Below are positions 1,073 through 21,917 of a DNA stretch of 24,679 nucleotides, piece after piece. The position numbers and the translations under genes are program-made. The DNA is from a virus: positions 1 to 24,679 of the IMG/VR virus record IMGVR_UViG_3300034063_001114; one strand, given 5' to 3'. How positions within the stretch are numbered: the first letter of the stretch is position 1; the number at the start of each line of letters is the position of its first letter. Below the pieces are notes generated by a model. The model worked only from the letters and a program-made list of their open reading frames with translations, had not been told where the DNA came from and ran no database searches.

Positions 1073-4000
1073 GTGGCCGAGCAGCTAGGCGCAGCAGAAC
1101 TACAGCTAGATGTCAACTCCAGCAACTTCAAGACGAAGCTCGACGCCGCCGAGGCGCAACTTCTCGCCCTGCAGCGTGTAGGCGATTCTGTCGGCACCAG
1201 CCTCAACAATATTTTTGCCAAAGACTACAGAATTAACGTCACCGATAGCCAAGTCGACGCTGCAAACATACGGCTGAACAAAACCTTAGCGAAGCTCCGC
1301 GAGATAACCGCCAACCCGTATAACATCCGCCTCAACTTTATACAATCTGGCGCAGGCACCGGCGGCGGTGGCAAGTTCGATCCCGGCCGCATAGTTGACG
1401 ACGCTATCGAACAAATCCTTAAGGGGGGCCTAAGCGGCCAAGCCGCCGACATCCTCCGCGGCGGCGGTGGTGCGGGCGCCGGCCGCGTGGGCGCCGCCCG
1501 ATCCCAACAACTCCGCGAGACCCTCCTCGCCCGAACGGAACGCGGCAGCCTCGGCGCCGGCGGCTTCAACATCCCCGGCCTCCAAGAGATCGTTCGCCAA
1601 CTCGGCCAGACCCCACTCCCTAAGACAGCCGGCCGCGCCCAGATCCTCAAGCAGGCCCGCGAAACCATCCAGCAGGCAACTGACGCGGTGATTGATCGTG
1701 TCGGACAGAATCTACTCGATCTACAGCTAAACCTAAGGCGCACACAAGGTGCTCAGTCCGGCGGGCTCACTGCCGCCCAAACCCGCAATCTCGACCCGGG
1801 TGGCAGCTACCAAAAAATAATCAACTCACTATCACTTCTTACCGGAGACCCCAAGCGGTATCGCGGGCGTATGGCGTCCGTAGGTCTTGAAAATCTACCT
1901 TCATCTTTGCTTGCATCGGCTCAACGGCAGTTAGAGCTGGAGCAGCTGTCTCCACTAGCCAGGCAAATCCGTTTCCAGACAAAAAGCTCGCCACTAGACA
2001 AAATTATTGACGATGCCTTTTTCGGTAAAGCCAGCATCCCGAAAACCAGCGCGGCTCTGCAGAACCTATCGCGAGCCATCGAGCAGGTAGGTGCTACAGC
2101 CGAAGCCGCAGTACCTGCGGGGATCCTGACAAGCGCAGGCGGGCGGCCTCGTTTCCGTAGGCCCACCGGGTTGCAGCCTGGCACAATCCAGTCGTTGTTC
2201 GGTGCCACGATTCCACCGCCAGCGCCGCCTACACCCCCGGTGCCGCCGCCTCCGCGTAGACCTGCGGCTCCGCCACCCCCACCACCCCCACCCCCACCAC
2301 CCCCACCACCCCCACCACCCCCGCCCCCACCGCCCCCGCCCCCACCACCCCCGCCGCCGCGGCAGCGACCGGCTCCGGCTGCTCCCGCAGCCCCGCAGCA
2401 ACCGTTTCTCCGCGGCTCCGCTAGGGACGCCATCAGCTCCGGCCTCATCGGCTTCGGCTTCCCACTCCTATTTGGCCAAGGGCTTGGCGCGGCAGTCGGC
2501 GGCGGCATCGGCGGCGCCGGTGGCGGCCTGCTCGGCGGCGGCTTCGGCTTCGCACTGAGCATCATCGGCACCGCGGTCGGCTCTCAATTCGACATCATCA
2601 TCAGCAAATCCAAGGATCTCGCCAGCGCCCTGCGCGACCCCATCGCCAACTTCGACCTCCTCAAGCAGAACAGCCAACTTTCCAGCCGCAGCACCGAACG
2701 CTACATCGAAGCCCTCATAAAAGTGGGACGCGAAGGCGAAGCCGCCGCACTTATCCAGCAAGACCTTGCTAACACCTACGGCAACCTCGACGGCGCTCGC
2801 GCTCTGTCTACTGCCCAGGACGACTTAGCGCGGAGCTGGACAAAACTAGGTGGTATCTTGTCCACGCTAGTCCTACCGGGTATCACCGATCTCACAAATG
2901 GAATAGCGGGATTTATTAGCGACCTCAACAAAAACGCAAAGCTAGTTCAAACCACTCCCGGACTTAACGCGCCATCCCCGGAAACAGAGGTGGGTAACTT
3001 CGTCCTTTCCGGTTTCGGCCTCTTTCCGCAAGTTCCGAAAGCCCTGCAGGAAGCCGGCGCCGCAGCACGCAGGTCCCGCACTACTCCGCAACCACCGGCA
3101 CCGCCACCCCCGCCTGAAGTTCTGGAGGCCCAAAAAGATCGCGCCTCCCTACTTAGCAACGAGCTGCGCCTAATCACCGCGCAAACCCAAGGCTACAAAG
3201 AGCAGGAGCTAAGCCTCAAGCTCTCCGTCGCTGCCGACAAAGAGCGCGTCGATCTCGGAGTCCTGAACCTTCGCCAGAAGCAGGCCACCAGCAATGAGGA
3301 ACGCAAGGCTCTCCAAGTCGAGATAGACGCCCGGCGCACACAGACCCTCAAAGAGCGCATCCAGCTCGAAGAGGAGCTTGCCGAAGTGCGGCGCAAGAAC
3401 CGCATCACGCAGGACTTCCGCCCCGCAATCCAGCAGCAGTCGCTCGCCATCATCGACGCCCAGGCTCGGGGCGCCCAGCGGCAAGCCATCATCGAGGAGC
3501 GCCGCCTCGCCACGTTGGAAACCGAGCGGCAGCTCCGCTTGGAGGGAAACCGCGACCCCGTGCGCCGCGGCGAAATCGTGGATCAGGGCCTACTCACCCA
3601 GGCCCGCCTCACCGCCCAACTCAACCAGCTCGACAAGGAGCGGGCCGCCTTCACCCGCCAAACCACCTTCGACGCCCGCGAGCAAGGCCAGGTCGCCCAG
3701 CGCCAACTGGCCTTTGCCCGCCAGCGCCTCGGCCTCGAAACCGGCATAGCCCGCCAGACCCTAGAACAGCGCGAGGCTGTCATCGAGTCGATCGCCGCCG
3801 CCCGCGACCGGCAGAAACGCGCCCAGTTCTCCTTCACTGAGGCCCTGCGCCAGGGCGGCGACACCGGCCAGCAACGTGCCTTCGAGATCGCGTCCAAGGA
3901 CATCCCCGAGGCCGCCCGCCAGCTCCAGCTCAGCCTCATCAACGGCGCCACCGCCCTCAAGGACGCCGGCCGCGAAATCAGCCGCAGCATCGAGGACAAC

Positions 4001-4405
4001 GCCCGCGCCCTCCAGGACCTCTACCTCACCAGCCAGTTCGCCACCGGCGAGCAGCGCCAGCAGGCCCTTACCGACCTCGACCGCCAGGTCCAGGCCGAGG
4101 CCGAGCGCCGCAACATCCGCTTCACCGTCAGTGGAACGGAACAGGAGCGCATCGCCGCCAAGCAGGCGTTCCTAGGTTTCGGCCGCCAGGAGACCGAACT
4201 GCTGAATCAGAGCCGCCAACTTGCCGACGCCCTCGCCATCGCAACCAAACCGATCGTCGATTCCAACGCCGGCCTTATCGGCAGCCAAGCCACCCTCATC
4301 GAGGCCATCAACACCCTCAGCCAAAAGGACTGGAACGTGAATGTGGCGGTAGCCTCGGATGGCACGGTCAAGCCCGCGGGCGATCTAGTCCCCAGCTACC
4401 TGTAG
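1073..4405 (+). CDS. Tail tape measure protein
   Basis: 1110 aa, by far the longest tail gene, which fits the ruler protein that sets tail length in siphophages. The N-terminal part is low-complexity and helical. Residues 400-429 are 30 uninterrupted prolines inside a longer Pro-rich stretch. Residues about 456-504 form a glycine-rich hydrophobic segment (GLGAAVGGGIGGAGG), typical of the membrane-active part of tape measure proteins. Residues about 690-1000 are long Arg/Glu/Gln-rich helices likely to form coiled coils. The GTG start is chosen because a class L motif ends 23 nt upstream. Parts of the gene (about 1200-1330, 1690-2060, 2830-2960) use AT-richer codons than the rest. The chaperone-like gene usually found just upstream is instead about 9 kb downstream. 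Confidence 0.88.
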   Translation: MAEQLGAAELQLDVNSSNFKTKLDAAEAQLLALQRVGDSVGTSLNNIFAKDYRINVTDSQVDAANIRLNKTLAKLREITANPYNIRLNFIQSGAGTGGGGKFDPGRIVDDAIEQILKGGLSGQAADILRGGGGAGAGRVGAARSQQLRETLLARTERGSLGAGGFNIPGLQEIVRQLGQTPLPKTAGRAQILKQARETIQQATDAVIDRVGQNLLDLQLNLRRTQGAQSGGLTAAQTRNLDPGGSYQKIINSLSLLTGDPKRYRGRMASVGLENLPSSLLASAQRQLELEQLSPLARQIRFQTKSSPLDKIIDDAFFGKASIPKTSAALQNLSRAIEQVGATAEAAVPAGILTSAGGRPRFRRPTGLQPGTIQSLFGATIPPPAPPTPPVPPPPRRPAAPPPPPPPPPPPPPPPPPPPPPPPPPPPPPPRQRPAPAAPAAPQQPFLRGSARDAISSGLIGFGFPLLFGQGLGAAVGGGIGGAGGGLLGGGFGFALSIIGTAVGSQFDIIISKSKDLASALRDPIANFDLLKQNSQLSSRSTERYIEALIKVGREGEAAALIQQDLANTYGNLDGARALSTAQDDLARSWTKLGGILSTLVLPGITDLTNGIAGFISDLNKNAKLVQTTPGLNAPSPETEVGNFVLSGFGLFPQVPKALQEAGAAARRSRTTPQPPAPPPPPEVLEAQKDRASLLSNELRLITAQTQGYKEQELSLKLSVAADKERVDLGVLNLRQKQATSNEERKALQVEIDARRTQTLKERIQLEEELAEVRRKNRITQDFRPAIQQQSLAIIDAQARGAQRQAIIEERRLATLETERQLRLEGNRDPVRRGEIVDQGLLTQARLTAQLNQLDKERAAFTRQTTFDAREQGQVAQRQLAFARQRLGLETGIARQTLEQREAVIESIAAARDRQKRAQFSFTEALRQGGDTGQQRAFEIASKDIPEAARQLQLSLINGATALKDAGREISRSIEDNARALQDLYLTSQFATGEQRQQALTDLDRQVQAEAERRNIRFTVSGTEQERIAAKQAFLGFGRQETELLNQSRQLADALAIATKPIVDSNAGLIGSQATLIEAINTLSQKDWNVNVAVASDGTVKPAGDLVPSYL
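2270..2359 (+). repeat. Polyproline-coding CCN tract in the tape measure gene
   Basis: Thirty consecutive proline codons (CCA, CCC, CCG), largely built from CCA/CCC alternations that read as repeated CACCCC units. The tract is in frame and divides the gene between its N-terminal region and the hydrophobic segment. Such a run is prone to length change by slippage and to ribosome stalling. Confidence 0.9.
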
Positions 4406-13454: not shown

Positions 13455-13721
13455 ATGGCACAGGCCGATTGGATGATCCCGCGCCCATCCTTGGCGGCTC
13501 AGGCCCAACTGGAATACAGCCTGCGGGTGCTGCAAGCAGAAGGACCTGCCGAATGCGACAAGGTGCTATCCATCGCCGCCGATCTCATGCGCCAAAACAT
13601 GCACTACAAAACTCTACTCAATCAAGCCATTGCCCACATCACCCAGTTGGAAGCGTTGGCAGCTCTGCACGATCGTACTCCTGCTCTATGCGACTCATGT
13701 AAAGCCGTAGTCGATTCGTAG
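13455..13721 (+). CDS. Hypothetical small helical protein; weak NblA-like pattern
   Basis: 88 aa, almost all helix, beginning MAQADWMIPRPSLAAQAQLE and ending with a CxxC motif (LCDSCKAVVDS). The central pattern (QLEYSLRVL, a short loop, then RQNMHYKTLLNQA) resembles in spacing the two-helix phycobilisome-degradation adaptor NblA, which some cyanophages carry, but identity is low and an unrelated helical hairpin is equally possible. A class E box lies 24 nt upstream. The last 83 bases overlap the 3' end of the sigma factor gene on the other strand. Confidence 0.55.
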   Translation: MAQADWMIPRPSLAAQAQLEYSLRVLQAEGPAECDKVLSIAADLMRQNMHYKTLLNQAIAHITQLEALAALHDRTPALCDSCKAVVDS

Positions 13722-14574
13722 CCTTCGTGTAGACCTGCAAAACCCGCTGCCGGCTGACGCCATGGGCCTTCCCAATATCCGACCAATTCTGCGCCGTGTA
13801 CCCGTCAAGCCCTAGCCTCCTGTTCACGATGTCCCGATCGCGCTCAGGCAATCTCACCACTGCCTGCATGATCAGGCCAATTCTCTCCTCCTGAACCATG
13901 TTGTCGAGCGGCCCCTCGCCCTCCACGTCATCCGTGAGCGTGTTGACGATGGAGGTCCCATCGCCCTCCCGCACAACCAAGTCGAGCGACACCGGCGGCT
14001 GTCCCCGCTCCAAGTAGAGCAACACATCCTGCGGAGTCACACCGAACTCCTCCGCGATCTCGTCGGTGGTGGGCGCCCTGCCCAGCTCCATCCGCAACCG
14101 CTGCGTTCTAGCGCCCCAGTTCGCCGCCATATCTCCGATCTTCCCGGGCATATGCACCGATCGATCCTTCTTGATGATGGCGCGTGTGATGCCCTGTCGG
14201 ATCCACCAATAGGCATAGGTCGAGAACTTATACCCCATCGATGGGTCGTAGCGGTGGACCGCCGTGATGAGGCCGATGTTGCCCTCCTGCACCAGATCCA
14301 TCAGGTCCATGCTCTTGGTGACGCGGCTGTAGCGCTTGGCGCAGGACACCACGAGCCGCAGATTGCTGCGCACAAACTTGCGCTCCGCCCGCTCCCCAAG
14401 CGCCACCTCCCGCCGCTCCTGCTGCGTCAGTTCCCGCTCCATCGCCTTGAGTTCCTGTGCTCTGCGCACCTTCCTCCCGAGGTCGATCTCCTGATCGGGA
14501 GTCAGCAGCGGCACCCGCCCGATCTCGTTGAGGTAGGCGTGCGACGTGCTTTCGCCGGTTGTCCGAGTCTTCAT
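13639..14574 (-). CDS. Phage-encoded sigma-70 family (group 2 type) sigma factor
   Basis: 311 aa with region 1.2 (SHAYLNEIGRVPLLTPDQEI, residues about 11-30), region 2 with the RNA polymerase core-binding and -10 recognition helices (DLMDLVQEGNIGLI, then GYKFSTYAYWWIRQGITRAI), region 3 (about 160-210) and region 4 with a helix-turn-helix (NWSDIGKAHGVSRQRVLQV) after LPERDRDIVNRRLGL. It lacks the long region 1.1 of the housekeeping factor, like cyanobacterial group 2 sigmas. It would redirect host RNA polymerase to phage promoters. The start overlaps the thyX stop by four bases (ATGA), so it is the last gene of the replication operon. It departs from the usual motif after TRAI (KKDRSVHMPGKI). 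Confidence 0.9.
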   Translation of the reverse strand: MKTRTTGESTSHAYLNEIGRVPLLTPDQEIDLGRKVRRAQELKAMERELTQQERREVALGERAERKFVRSNLRLVVSCAKRYSRVTKSMDLMDLVQEGNIGLITAVHRYDPSMGYKFSTYAYWWIRQGITRAIIKKDRSVHMPGKIGDMAANWGARTQRLRMELGRAPTTDEIAEEFGVTPQDVLLYLERGQPPVSLDLVVREGDGTSIVNTLTDDVEGEGPLDNMVQEERIGLIMQAVVRLPERDRDIVNRRLGLDGYTAQNWSDIGKAHGVSRQRVLQVYTKATNRLRLYMSRIEQEYDRAELPTLPTG

Positions 14575-15323
14575 GGTGCGAGTCGTGCGCGAGTGAGTCG
14601 GGTCTTCTTATACCAAGCCGCAATCTCCGGCGCCCACGTCTCAAGATGCGGCCACATCAAATCGCAGAGCTGCCGGATTTCCAGCTGCGCATCCGCCTTA
14701 GCCCTCAGATCCAAAAAATGCAGCATGGCCCTAAGGCTGAAGCTAATTACAAAGTGCTGCCTGAAGTCGAACGGGAGGATACCGCGGGCGTGCTCCTCTG
14801 CAAACCCTGCGCGGATGAGATCGTGGTACCGTTGGGCTGCGGGCGCACAAAAGAACACCTTGTCTTCGCAGCGCTGGTTTTCCGTATAGGTGTACCTCTT
14901 ACCGTCCCGAGCAGTGTAGTCTCCAGCCGGGCGTAGATAGAATACCTCTTCTATGTAGGCGTAATCAGTACCGGCTTTTAAGATGCGCTCTCCCGTGTAG
15001 CGCATCGACTGCACATCGAAGCTCAAACCGACACGGTGCGTCCGCGCCTGTTGCATCACCGAATGAGGGAACCACCCAACGTTCAGTGTGATCTGTGGGT
15101 GCTCCAGCGGCCCGTAGTGCCCCCTATCCCCAGCCAGCAACCGCTGCACACAAATCTCCCCAGCGCGGGTCTCATCAGGCCAGTTTGCCCGATCGTCGTA
15201 GACATAACCCTCGCTGTAATCTTGGTGCATAGCCGCATAAATGCACTGCTGCGGATTCGGCGTAGCCGTAATAAGATCCACCCGAAACAGCGGATCCATC
15301 GGTGTGTTCCGTGTCTCAGTCAT
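14571..15323 (-). CDS. thyX: Flavin-dependent thymidylate synthase
   Basis: 250 aa. ThyX makes dTMP from dUMP using methylenetetrahydrofolate, FAD and NADPH, supplying thymidine for phage DNA. The diagnostic FAD/dUMP motif is present at residues about 93-110 as RTHRVGLSFDVQSMRYTG, a variant of the usual RHRxxSxNxxSxRY with RTHR at the start, which I associate with cyanobacterial-type enzymes. The conserved C-terminal RxMLHFLDLR-type segment (SLRAMLHFLDLRAKADAQLEI) is also present. The start ATG lies inside the 24-bp junction repeat, which also supplies GAGGAG as SD; the resulting N-terminus MTETRNTP copies that of the upstream small paralog, and Met9 (MDPLFRVDLI) may be the ancestral start. 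The stop overlaps the sigma start. Confidence 0.92.
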   Translation of the reverse strand: MTETRNTPMDPLFRVDLITATPNPQQCIYAAMHQDYSEGYVYDDRANWPDETRAGEICVQRLLAGDRGHYGPLEHPQITLNVGWFPHSVMQQARTHRVGLSFDVQSMRYTGERILKAGTDYAYIEEVFYLRPAGDYTARDGKRYTYTENQRCEDKVFFCAPAAQRYHDLIRAGFAEEHARGILPFDFRQHFVISFSLRAMLHFLDLRAKADAQLEIRQLCDLMWPHLETWAPEIAAWYKKTRLTRARLAP

Positions 15324-15339
15324 TGTAGGTAGGCTCCTC
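15316..15339 (-). repeat. Junction repeat 1 (third paralog / thyX)
   Basis: 24-bp sequence, identical to the copy at 15560-15583. Read on the minus strand it encodes EEPTYND-stop of the upstream gene, and its GAGGAG serves as SD ten bases before the ATG of thyX, which starts within it; the two genes overlap by 8 bases. Confidence 0.85.
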
Positions 15340-15567
15340 CACAATGAACACAGAAACACCTTCGCAGCCTTCCGGCATGTGTGAGGGCTTAATGGCCTTT
15401 GCTATGGCATAAGCATCGTTAAGATCGGACCATGTGCTAACATCTTCCGGTTTGAGCGTCGTGATAATAGTGTCGTTACCCCTTCCAACGTAGTAGACGT
15501 AGGGTACATCTATACCTGGAAAGTAAAACCGCACGCCATATCGCGTGACTGTTTTTGTGTCAGTCAT
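15316..15567 (-). CDS. Tandem small paralog 3 of 3, hypothetical
   Basis: 83 aa starting MTDTKTVTRYGVRFYF and ending VEEPTYND. It is the most diverged of three tandem relatives: it keeps TRYGV at the start, the W near residue 46 and the EEPTYND end, but loses the EDACTW block of the other two. It overlaps its upstream neighbour and thyX by 8 bases each. No known family is recognised; small soluble alpha/beta fold likely. Codon use is AT-richer than in the structural genes. Confidence 0.75.
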   Translation of the reverse strand: MTDTKTVTRYGVRFYFPGIDVPYVYYVGRGNDTIITTLKPEDVSTWSDLNDAYAIAKAIKPSHMPEGCEGVSVFIVEEPTYND

Positions 15568-15583
15568 TGTAGGTAGGCTCCTC
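15560..15583 (-). repeat. Junction repeat 2 (second / third paralog)
   Basis: Identical 24-bp copy of the junction repeat, encoding the C-terminus EEPTYND of the second paralog, an SD-like GAGGAG and the start of the third paralog, with the same 8-base gene overlap. Confidence 0.85.
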
Positions 15584-15802
15584 TACGGGATACACATTAA
15601 CCTGCCAACCATGCTTTTGCATACTTTTTGTTAATGCTGCAACCACAAGCTGTGCGGTGCTCTCCGGCTTCCATGTGCAAGCGTCTTCGGCTACATCGGT
15701 GAACATAGCGTCCAAATCACCGGATTTGTTTGGTATAAAGCCGGTTACATATACAGTGGTGCCGTCTACGTGCGCGGATACCCCGTAGCGCGTTTCAGTC
15801 AT
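15560..15802 (-). CDS. Tandem small paralog 2 of 3, hypothetical
   Basis: 80 aa starting MTETRYGVSAHVDGTTVYVTGF, with FTDVAEDACTW in the middle and VEEPTYND at the end. It aligns along its whole length with paralog 1 (TRYGV, VDGTxxYxTGF, AxFTxVxEDACTW, NVxPxEEPTxND). The open frame extends six codons upstream of the chosen ATG, but the ATG inside the junction repeat has the GAGGAG SD at ten bases and matches the pattern of the other junctions. The function is unknown. Confidence 0.78.
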   Translation of the reverse strand: MTETRYGVSAHVDGTTVYVTGFIPNKSGDLDAMFTDVAEDACTWKPESTAQLVVAALTKSMQKHGWQVNVYPVEEPTYND

Positions 15803-15818
15803 TGCAGGTAGGCTCCTC
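15795..15818 (-). repeat. Junction repeat 3 (first / second paralog)
   Basis: Third copy of the 24-bp junction repeat with one substitution (Tyr to Cys in the encoded EEPTCND). Distances between the three copies are 235 and 244 bases, that is, one gene length each. Confidence 0.85.
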
Positions 15819-16061
15819 AATAGGAACTACGTTAATCGTAGTACCGTAAAACCCGACGCTTTCTTTTAGGGATGCAACCGCCGCCTTTGCTTTGGCCTCA
15901 GATCCCCACGTGCAGGCGTCTTCACAAACCGAGGTAAATACGGCTCCCCACCCACAGCTACTATCGGGTCTGAACCCTGTCAAGTATCTAGGCGTACCAT
16001 CTACTCTATCTTGAATCGCTACACCGTACCTTGTGACGGTCTCTGTGTCGGGATGGTCCAT
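15795..16061 (-). CDS. Tandem small paralog 1 of 3, hypothetical
   Basis: 88 aa starting MDHPDTETVTRYGVAIQ and ending PIEEPTCND. It has the same body as paralog 2, including the FTSVCEDACTW block with two cysteines. It is the first gene of the cassette. The ATG at 16061 is preferred over a TTG at 16076 because a TAGTGT -10 box lies 22 nt upstream of it. The likely ancestral unit of the family; function unknown. Confidence 0.75.
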   Translation of the reverse strand: MDHPDTETVTRYGVAIQDRVDGTPRYLTGFRPDSSCGWGAVFTSVCEDACTWGSEAKAKAAVASLKESVGFYGTTINVVPIEEPTCND

Positions 16062-16083
16062 GGGCTGTGTGAACAACCCGCTT

Positions 16084-19439: not shown

Positions 19440-21917
19440 TTACTCCCAGAGGTTGGCGGCGTTGGTTAGAGCCTCCGCAGACACCGCTCCACCCTCTGCG
19501 GAGCCATCCGCCTCGTGCGCGCACGCGGGGGGATATTCCCCAGAGTGTCCCCCGGTGGCAGATCCCTTGGTATCACTGCCTTTGACCGGGGGACAGGGGG
19601 TGCCTTTTTCGGGTAGGTGTCCCCCGGTCGCGCCACCCTCGCCGGAACCACCCCCTGACCGGGGGACACTTTGTTTTTCCACAGGGGGGGTGTCCCCCGG
19701 TCGATCGACTGCAGCGCAAGGGAAGTGCCCACTGGGGGACACATTTTTAACCTCTCCGCGTGCGCGCGTAGTGGAGGTATCAGGATGAACCAAAACCGCC
19801 CTGTAGTGGATCACGGTGGATCCCCTCGGCCCCGGCACGCTTTCCACCGCCTCTATTAACCCCCTCTTCACCAAACGCTGAATCGCCTTCTTCGTAGCAG
19901 CCACCCGCCCCCCAACGAGTGGGTCGCTATTGAGATCCGCCTGCCGCAGCGTCCGCGGGAACACCGTCCTCAACCGCTGCAGCACCCGATCCGAGTGGCT
20001 CGCCGGAGTGCTGTCATCCGGGTTGACCTCCGGCGTGAAGTCCCGGATCGAGAAGGACAGGTCGTCCTCCATCCGCATCAGCAGCTGTGTGCCCCCACGA
20101 CCGCACCGGGACTTCTCGATGGTTATGACCCTCGCAGCGGGCCCTACCTCCGCCAGCAAGGCCCCTTCGGGCTTCTTCAGGGCCCAGACCTCATTGACGG
20201 CATCCCGGATGGCGCTGGTGCCCCGGAAACCCCCCTGCTTGTTCGCGTGGTGGATCACCACGATCGTCGTGGCCGGGTACAGCACCCCGTTGTTCCGGGT
20301 GAGCCAATACAGCGGCTGCGCGAACTCGCTCTTGTTCTCGTCGAACGCCTTACCACCCGCGCACCCGATCAACGAGTCGATGATCACCAGCTTGGGCCGC
20401 CGCCGCTTCATCAGCTCCATGAACTGGGCGTAGTAGTGGAGCGACCACTCCCCCCGGATCAGCGTGCGCTCATCGAGGGGAAACTCCGCCTCCTGCAACT
20501 GCTCCTGCAGGTCGCTCAGCGGCTGGTCCCCGTTCAGGATCACCACGTCGCCCTGCTGCACCGGCACCGGCCTCCCCCGAACCATGAACGGCAACCCCTC
20601 CAGCACATGCCGCCCCAGCGTCCAAGCGCTCATCGACTTGCCGTCACCCCCCGAGCCGTACATCAGTACCACCCCCGGAGTGGGTAGCAAATCAGGGATC
20701 AGGTACTCCCGCTCAACCACGAAGTCGCGCAATTTGTCCGCCGTCAGCTCCCCTGGATTTTCCACAAATCCGACGTGATCGACATACACCTGCTCCAGCC
20801 GGCTCTGATCCCGATACCCGGCCTGCAGCGCCAACTGATTTAGCTCGAAGTTCCGCTTCCCCGGATCCTCCAGCTCCATCACCGCCTTCATCCGAGTCAT
20901 CGCCTCCTCGAACGACAGCGTTGCCTGTCTCACCTCCTGAACCTGGCGAGCTTCCGCCGCCTCAAGAACTCCCCTGCTGGCGTCCGAAAATCGCCGCCTC
21001 AACGGATCCTGCTGATCCGCCAACCAGACGAGGGTGGCAAACCCAATCCCCCCACCCTGCTTGAACGACCCCCAAGGCTTCTCACACGGATTCCCGTCCG
21101 CCCACTCGGCCGAATACTCCGGGTCCTCCGCACTCCACGCACTCCACAGCGTCAGCCCCAGCTCCCCCGGCAACGCCGAGTGGATCGCCATGCCCACCTG
21201 CAACCAGTGGTCCCGGCTCCCCGCCCCCTGCTGCGGAATCACCCGCAGGCAATCCTGCGCAATCTCGGCAATCTCATCCTCAGTCCTATCTGAGACATCC
21301 AAGGCTTTACGATTTTTTAAGAATCCCCTGCCATCTACCGAGTCGGACGCCGCCGCAGACTCCCGCATCTCCGCCAGCAGCCAACCTGGCGCCTCCGGGA
21401 TGGAACGCAAATCCCCAGACAGCGTGTACGCCCCCACAGGGGCCTTCCCATCGCTCGACCCCGGGTAGGCGCCGTACAGCAGCCCCTGGCGGCCCCACAG
21501 GACCTCGTAGCCCGCTCCCGTGGCCGCCAGGCTCAGCCCCTTCACCTCCCGCCAGTGCTTCTCGGGCACGAGGAACAGGAACTTGGCCGCGTTGGCCTTG
21601 GTGCTGGTGACACAAGGCGCCCCCTCCAGCGTCGCCCCCCACTTCTTCCTGAGTCGAGCGAGGTTGGCATCCACATCCAGGATCACCAGCCCCTGGCTCC
21701 GCGGCCCCGTGAACACGCCCACCGCTTGGAACACCTCGGGCCGCCGCTCGATCTGCAGCGCCACATCGGCAGGGTCCATGACCTGGTGCCGCGCCCTGCC
21801 GTGGGGCGACTTGCCGCGGCTCGGCTTCCCATCGCCCGGCATCACCGCCCCATCGGCGTAGATCGGCGCATAGGCGTAGCCCTCCGGCAGCGCCCTGACA
21901 AACGACAGCAGATCCAT
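19440..21917 (-). CDS. Primase-polymerase / RepA-like helicase fusion
   Basis: 825 aa. Residues 1 to about 190 look like a bifunctional primase-polymerase (PrimPol) domain, with the metal-binding DVD in GLVILDVDAN; the usual second motif with His is unclear (TSTKANAAKFLF). Residues about 215-305 match a PriCT-2-like domain (RDHWLQVGMAIHSA, later WGSFKQGGGIGFATLVWLA). Residues about 405-640 are a RecA/RepA-type hexameric helicase: Walker A GSGGDGKS near 420-428, Walker B LVIIDS near 512 and IHHANKQGGFRGTSAIRD. A winged-helix-like segment follows (LVKRGLIEAVESV) and then a disordered Gly/Pro/Ser tail (about 715-825) that is encoded over the iteron-like repeats. It unwinds and primes phage DNA. 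The SD is AGGAG, 8 bases before the ATG. Confidence 0.85.
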   Translation of the reverse strand: MDLLSFVRALPEGYAYAPIYADGAVMPGDGKPSRGKSPHGRARHQVMDPADVALQIERRPEVFQAVGVFTGPRSQGLVILDVDANLARLRKKWGATLEGAPCVTSTKANAAKFLFLVPEKHWREVKGLSLAATGAGYEVLWGRQGLLYGAYPGSSDGKAPVGAYTLSGDLRSIPEAPGWLLAEMRESAAASDSVDGRGFLKNRKALDVSDRTEDEIAEIAQDCLRVIPQQGAGSRDHWLQVGMAIHSALPGELGLTLWSAWSAEDPEYSAEWADGNPCEKPWGSFKQGGGIGFATLVWLADQQDPLRRRFSDASRGVLEAAEARQVQEVRQATLSFEEAMTRMKAVMELEDPGKRNFELNQLALQAGYRDQSRLEQVYVDHVGFVENPGELTADKLRDFVVEREYLIPDLLPTPGVVLMYGSGGDGKSMSAWTLGRHVLEGLPFMVRGRPVPVQQGDVVILNGDQPLSDLQEQLQEAEFPLDERTLIRGEWSLHYYAQFMELMKRRRPKLVIIDSLIGCAGGKAFDENKSEFAQPLYWLTRNNGVLYPATTIVVIHHANKQGGFRGTSAIRDAVNEVWALKKPEGALLAEVGPAARVITIEKSRCGRGGTQLLMRMEDDLSFSIRDFTPEVNPDDSTPASHSDRVLQRLRTVFPRTLRQADLNSDPLVGGRVAATKKAIQRLVKRGLIEAVESVPGPRGSTVIHYRAVLVHPDTSTTRARGEVKNVSPSGHFPCAAVDRPGDTPPVEKQSVPRSGGGSGEGGATGGHLPEKGTPCPPVKGSDTKGSATGGHSGEYPPACAHEADGSAEGGAVSAEALTNAANLWE
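19545..19742. repeat. Six alternating 12-bp repeats (iteron-like array), candidate replication origin
   Basis: GTGTCCCCCGGT at 19545-19556, 19617-19628 and 19690-19701; its reverse complement at 19585-19596 (one mismatch), 19658-19669 and 19731-19742 (one mismatch). Start-to-start distances are 40, 32, 41, 32, 41, giving a 73-bp period. The copies fall in different reading frames of the primase-helicase gene (RPGDT, SVPRS, TGGH, CPPV, VSPS), so they are conserved as DNA, not as protein. A DnaA-type box lies inside the array. Confidence 0.7.
19675..19683 (+). other. DnaA box (cyanobacterial form)
   Basis: TTTTCCACA, the form of the DnaA box used at cyanobacterial origins, centred between iteron-like copies four and five. 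Confidence 0.5.
20758..20766 (+). other. Second DnaA-type box within the primase-helicase gene
   Basis: A second exact TTTTCCACA, about 1.1 kb from the first. It lies in coding sequence with no repeats around it, so it may be chance. Confidence 0.25.

Follow-up and report, generated by a model that had tools for sequence, protein, structure and literature searches.

What is the role of a set of short inverted repeats that lies inside the coding sequence of a phage replication gene? This question is raised by a viral DNA of 24,679 nucleotides (IMG/VR record IMGVR_UViG_3300034063_001114; this whole stretch is the window), in which six 12-bp sites occupy the end of a gene for a primase-helicase. 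We suggest that the array is the cognate platform to which the very enzyme encoded by the surrounding gene binds, and most likely the origin from which this enzyme starts replication, and we put the probability of this reading at about 75%. The predicted recognition of the array by the C-terminal winged-helix (wHTH) domain of the enzyme is well supported by the co-variation of the two sequences; loading, melting and use as an origin, and thus origin activity itself, are steps that we infer.

The array and the gene that carries it

The gene and the parts of its product are as follows.

19440 to 21917, minus strand: primase-helicase gene, 825 aa, with PriCT_2, AAA_25, a C-terminal wHTH and a disordered tail
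21018 to 21257, minus strand: PriCT_2 domain, aa 221-300 (Pfam PF08707, E 8.6e-16)
20232 to 20738, minus strand: AAA_25 RecA/RepA-like ATPase domain, aa 394-562 (Pfam PF13481, E 5e-19)
19797 to 19997, minus strand: winged-helix DNA-binding domain, aa 641-707 (from AF2 models and from fold matches in the PDB)
19890 to 19892, minus strand: codon of K676, a recognition-helix residue that co-varies with bases 6-7 of the motif
19818 to 19820, minus strand: codon of S700, a wing-tip residue that co-varies with base 8 of the motif
19470 to 19790, minus strand: disordered-tail codons, aa 710-816, holding the array (mean pLDDT about 30)

Both Pfam matches are above the curated cut-offs (58.5 against 22 bits for PF08707, 69.1 against 27 bits for PF13481). 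The ATPase part has a fold match to DnaB and RSF1010 RepA, and a PDB sequence search with the family profile gave weak matches only, including RSF1010 RepA at E 0.23. For the winged helix, AlphaFold2 (AF2) predicts three helices and a two-strand wing (H56-66, H74-79, H87-100, E103-110 and E116-122), for which the PDB matches reach Z 9-10 with weak Foldseek E-values. In the AF2 models the disordered tail with the array codons follows directly after this domain.

The sites and their flanks are listed here.

19517 to 19528, no strand assigned: outer GC-rich inverted arm, partner of 19756-19767
19545 to 19556, plus strand: array copy 1, GTGTCCCCCGGT
19585 to 19596, minus strand: array copy 2, CTGTCCCCCGGT
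19617 to 19628, plus strand: array copy 3, GTGTCCCCCGGT
19658 to 19669, minus strand: array copy 4, GTGTCCCCCGGT
19690 to 19701, plus strand: array copy 5, GTGTCCCCCGGT
19731 to 19742, minus strand: array copy 6, GTGTCCCCCAGT, one mismatch
19756 to 19767, no strand assigned: outer GC-rich inverted arm, partner of 19517-19528

The six GC-rich, strand-alternating copies that a preliminary description had reported were all recovered at 19545-19742, within the final 310 nt of the gene. Five of the six match the 11-mer TGTCCCCCGGT exactly, and the remaining copy (19731-19742) has one mismatch. The start-to-start spacings are 40, 32, 41, 32 and 41, with same-strand periods of 72-73, which agrees with the alternation of 32 and 41 bp and the same-strand period of about 73 bp described before; the layout is 50-23-50-23-49. 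The argument that differing reading frames speak against repetition at the protein level also holds, the translations across the copies being VSPS, PGDT, VPRS, TGGH, CPPV and TGGH. Of 2000 synonymous-codon shuffles that preserve the protein, none brought a 10-mer to five copies within the final 420 nt (maximum 3). In a 49.6-kb relative (G001, 98% identical), six of the six occurrences of TGTCCCCC in the whole contig are inside the array. The window array is a DNA-level feature and not the product of chance, protein repetition or an RNA fold. Comparable GC-rich arms, as judged by eye, flank the arrays of relatives, and protein conservation may be an alternative source of these arms.

Elsewhere in the window, three tandem paralogous small ORFs with a slight head-to-tail overlap, each ending in EEPT[YC]ND, lie on the minus strand at 15316-16076, and a phage sigma-70 factor gene adjoins a thyX (Thy1) gene at 13639-15359. 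A long unbroken proline run is encoded at window positions 2190-2330; it belongs to the 1110-aa protein of 1073-4405, which may be a tail or tape-measure protein.

Conservation of the array and co-variation with the winged helix

Scanning viral contigs with protein searches and DNA patterns yielded several hundred relatives, and 144 non-redundant loci from IMG/VR were analyzed. Arrays are found in the same part of the gene in nearly all relatives, with 4-9 sites that have a TGTC core and a lineage-specific tail; the site sequences include TGTCGCATT, TGTCACATT, TGTCCCATT, TGTCCCACT, TGTCCACCC, TGTCCAGGG, TGTCCCCCT and others. With scoring anchored on TGTC, a core learned from the same loci, the controls being scored identically, the mean array score over the 144 loci is 5.07, compared with 1.16 for shuffled tails and 0.85 for gene-body pieces. 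The gene tail outscores all its own shuffles and gene-body pieces in 142 of the 144, and an unanchored search recovers the same arrays. The expectation that the array would be conserved in relatives is borne out, since it is kept in place.

In 113 of 117 arrays the first inverted pair is spaced by 48-51 bp, counted T to T between the TGTC cores, with inner gaps that depend on the lineage, and mirror symmetry (orientation, and gaps within 2 bp) is present in 58 of 112 arrays compared with 3.4% when gaps are permuted; related loci are non-independent, and therefore these fractions describe the family and are not a test of a null. A helical phasing of seven turns, proposed earlier, is not upheld: the best periods are 11.9 (same strand) and 10.2 (opposite strand), with no common optimum at 10.5 bp. 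Same-strand spacings vary among the relatives, and what is conserved instead is the 48-51 bp inverted pair.

There is no close relative among the isolated phages of the INPHARED set. The distant relatives are in Synechococcus phage S-CBS4 and in cyanobacterial plasmids, from which we consider the host to be probably cyanobacterial. No clear array was seen in the tails of the primase/ATPase genes of S-CBS4, S-EIVl and Pam2. Pattern matches in Akkermansiaceae and Paraprevotella contigs (L044 and L045) are isolated pairs with no surrounding primase gene and were taken as chance, and about 20 matches to the TGTCGCATT pattern outside the family are at the chance level by our own estimate of the expectation.

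Which part of the protein follows the changes in site sequence? Raw mutual information is distorted both by kinship and by the fact that the sites themselves encode some tail residues, and we therefore counted co-changes on trees and restricted the alignment columns to 1-722; the tree was built from aa 1-620 and has 116 tips. Motif bases 6-7 changed 22 times, 15 of them on branches that also change residue 676 (hypergeometric p=3e-12). This is the best of columns 1-722, the next column reaching 4e-4. Residue 676 ranks top on all three trees used (aa 1-620, 1-390 and 394-600), and its score was reached by none of 20,000 branch-length-weighted random placements. For motif base 8, 16 of the 22 changes occur together with residue 700 (p=1.7e-11), a result that holds on two trees, with a tie with residue 703 on the third, the ATPase-only tree. 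Weaker co-change links residue 701 to motif position 9.

The states of these residues are matched to the bases. Gln676 goes with A at motif position 6 (28 of 28), Lys676 with C at position 6 (14 of 14) and Arg676 with CA at positions 6-7 (62 of 65), while Lys or Arg700 goes with T at position 8 (42 of 45) and Tyr700 with C (27 of 27). In our own reading the pairs are chemically sensible, i.e., Gln with A, and Arg or Lys with the G opposite C. Residue 676 is in the recognition helix of the AF2 model and residue 700 at the tip of the wing. Had phages exchanged the entire C-terminal module, many columns should co-change, and this is not seen. The co-change on trees is strong computational evidence, and the principal evidence here, that the wHTH of the enzyme would itself read the array. 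Binding of the repeats by the encoded primase-helicase, which the preliminary description had named as a check, is very probable. Since the site sequence has changed in step with the wHTH in more than 100 related phages, the array very probably marks the spot on its own genome at which the enzyme lands to start replication.

A proposed origin and its alternatives

We suggest the following mechanism. Several wHTH domains would bind the inverted sites, so that those of two primase-helicase rings occupy the two halves of the symmetric array. The mirror-symmetric layout would set these rings in opposite orientation, and the two rings could then load, unwind and prime, thereby starting bidirectional replication. 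As the sites are in codons of the disordered tail, initiator and origin would stay linked and their specificity could change jointly. GC skew, which had been put forward as a further indicator of an origin, gives no support, as it does not switch at the window array and keeps one sign nearly throughout the 49.6-kb relative.

The alternative that survives best is that the array is bound by the primase-helicase as a control element and that the origin is elsewhere. Such an element could act in copy control or incompatibility, as P4 crr does, or could block transcription for autoregulation near the 3' end of the gene. Co-variation shows recognition only; it argues for binding, not for origin function, and the sites could also serve in regulation or copy control. 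In addition, the array lacks an AT-rich element for unwinding, its AT content (0.464) being that of the gene body. However, a 3'-terminal placement is unusual for an operator, the 49.6-kb relative has no second cluster of exact TGTCCCCC sites, and functional relatives employ such arrays as origins (PMC7581432). We therefore regard a control element as unlikely.

The preliminary description had also placed a DnaA box at the centre of the array. The sequence in question is as follows.

19675 to 19683, plus strand: TTTTCCACA, DnaA-box-like, about 35 bp off the array centre

The box is present, but it is not central, and TTTTCCACA occurs in only 4 of the 144 arrays, because of which it is at most lineage-specific. 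At L095 (8258-8290) an inverted TTTTCCACA pair sits at the array centre within an enlarged central gap, and L096 and L104 have two boxes each, again as an inverted pair at the centre. These loci and the box in the window would fit an origin that is opened by host DnaA, with the repeats as accessories, but its rarity across the family makes this very improbable. More doubtful still is a role of the repeats as mRNA hairpins in attenuation, stability or translation. The inverted pairs are able to pair in RNA, but the fold energy is no better than that of synonymous shuffles (z -0.5), relatives show odd copy numbers and same-strand neighbours, and the motif tracks a DNA-binding domain. A functionless low-complexity protein or mobile repeat, which the disorder of the tail might suggest, has a negligible chance of being right, given that the copies lie in different frames, that place and layout are kept despite changed sequence in 142 of 144 relatives, and that the site sequence co-varies with the wHTH.

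A broader picture can also be drawn, to which we give even chances. A large, almost uncultured phage family would have as its origin a mirror-symmetric array in the disordered-tail codons of the initiator, read by a nearly one-residue-to-base code (residues 676 and 700). Joint switches of specificity would have taken place repeatedly inside a single gene, perhaps driven by competitors or by nucleases that attack origins, and two rings would be set head-to-head with neither DnaA nor an AT-rich element. This would be a clear case of an initiator and an origin diverging together within one gene. The finding makes a suspected origin into a testable protein-DNA code: recognition domain and site occur in more than 100 natural combinations, and two residues predict bases. 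Potentially, the array could help to locate candidate origins in hundreds of contigs from uncultured phages, probably of cyanobacteria, and could supply cyanobacterial genetics with orthogonal initiator/origin pairs.

Comparison with known systems

A single protein that is primase, helicase and origin binder is found in satellite P4, where the ori1 and crr repeats of the alpha protein are in both orientations; unlike the window array, these sites are outside the alpha gene. Lambda O is not a helicase, and neither is RepA_N. With respect to iteron plasmid origins that use DnaA, with direct repeats, DnaA boxes and an AT-rich region, the present array is different in that its sites alternate, the DnaA box is confined to those few loci and AT is not raised.

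Similar arrays exist elsewhere. The Anabaena cylindrica plasmid pANACY.03 (L179, 3917-4138) has eight TGTCCAA/TTGGACA sites in the coding tail of an AAA ATPase gene, after a wHTH-like stretch; the homologue is distant (29% identity over the ATPase-wHTH part), and the array may be the origin of the plasmid. In Pseudomonas phage vB_PstS-pAN (L182, 6723-7020), twelve TGTGTTGGG sites in both orientations are directly downstream of a PriCT-2 gene. With these two arrays, the kind is already known in outline. In a Synechocystis plasmid (L183, 4225-4300), the tail of an AAA ATPase gene carries repeats similar to CTACTAACACC. On an unrelated phage contig (L137, 11138-11433), 11 sites similar to TGTCCCATTG are clustered between genes, and a gene for a VapE-like helicase lies upstream; the motif is the same as in one branch of the primase-helicase array family, by either convergence or exchange. 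No description of the array was found in the open-access literature; what we did not find described there is a version that is both intragenic and symmetric and has a specificity code that can be read across a large family of uncultured phages.

The RepA_N initiators of PLE resemble the present system in that initiator and origin change specificity as one module, there under attack by the origin-directed nuclease ICP1 Odn (PMC8263062), but their iterons are in a non-coding region (PMC7145576) and those described here are coding. In lambda and the lambdoid phages the origin is in the middle of gene O (PMC7466680). The parallel drawn in the preliminary description stands, as here too the repeats are within the gene of their own initiator and are matched to it, in our case by co-variation. 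The differences are that lambda has an adjacent AT-rich region, which the window array does not, and that the binder here would be the PriCT_2/AAA_25 primase-helicase itself and not an O-type initiator.

A likeness is also suggested with the Rep (Pri-Rep) proteins of SaPIs and PICIs and with SCCmec Cch2, which are self-encoded helicases, sometimes fused to a primase, whose C-terminal domain reads short repeats located where the gene ends (3') (PMC7581432, PMC6092414). In the phage protein, the wHTH that follows the ATPase and co-varies with the motif strongly suggests a C-terminal domain of this type. In SaPI Rep and Cch2 the C-terminal domain binds iterons directly downstream of their own genes (PMC7581432), whereas the window sites form part of the coding region, close to its 3' end. 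In PICI origins an AT-rich tract is flanked by two sets of iterons (PMC6092414); the window array is strand-alternating and mirror-symmetric, with no such tract between two sets. The ATPase of the phage protein also differs, being a RepA/DnaB-like AAA_25. By analogy with these systems, the best explanation is a mechanism like that of the SaPI/PICI initiators, with the sites placed inside the gene as in lambda.
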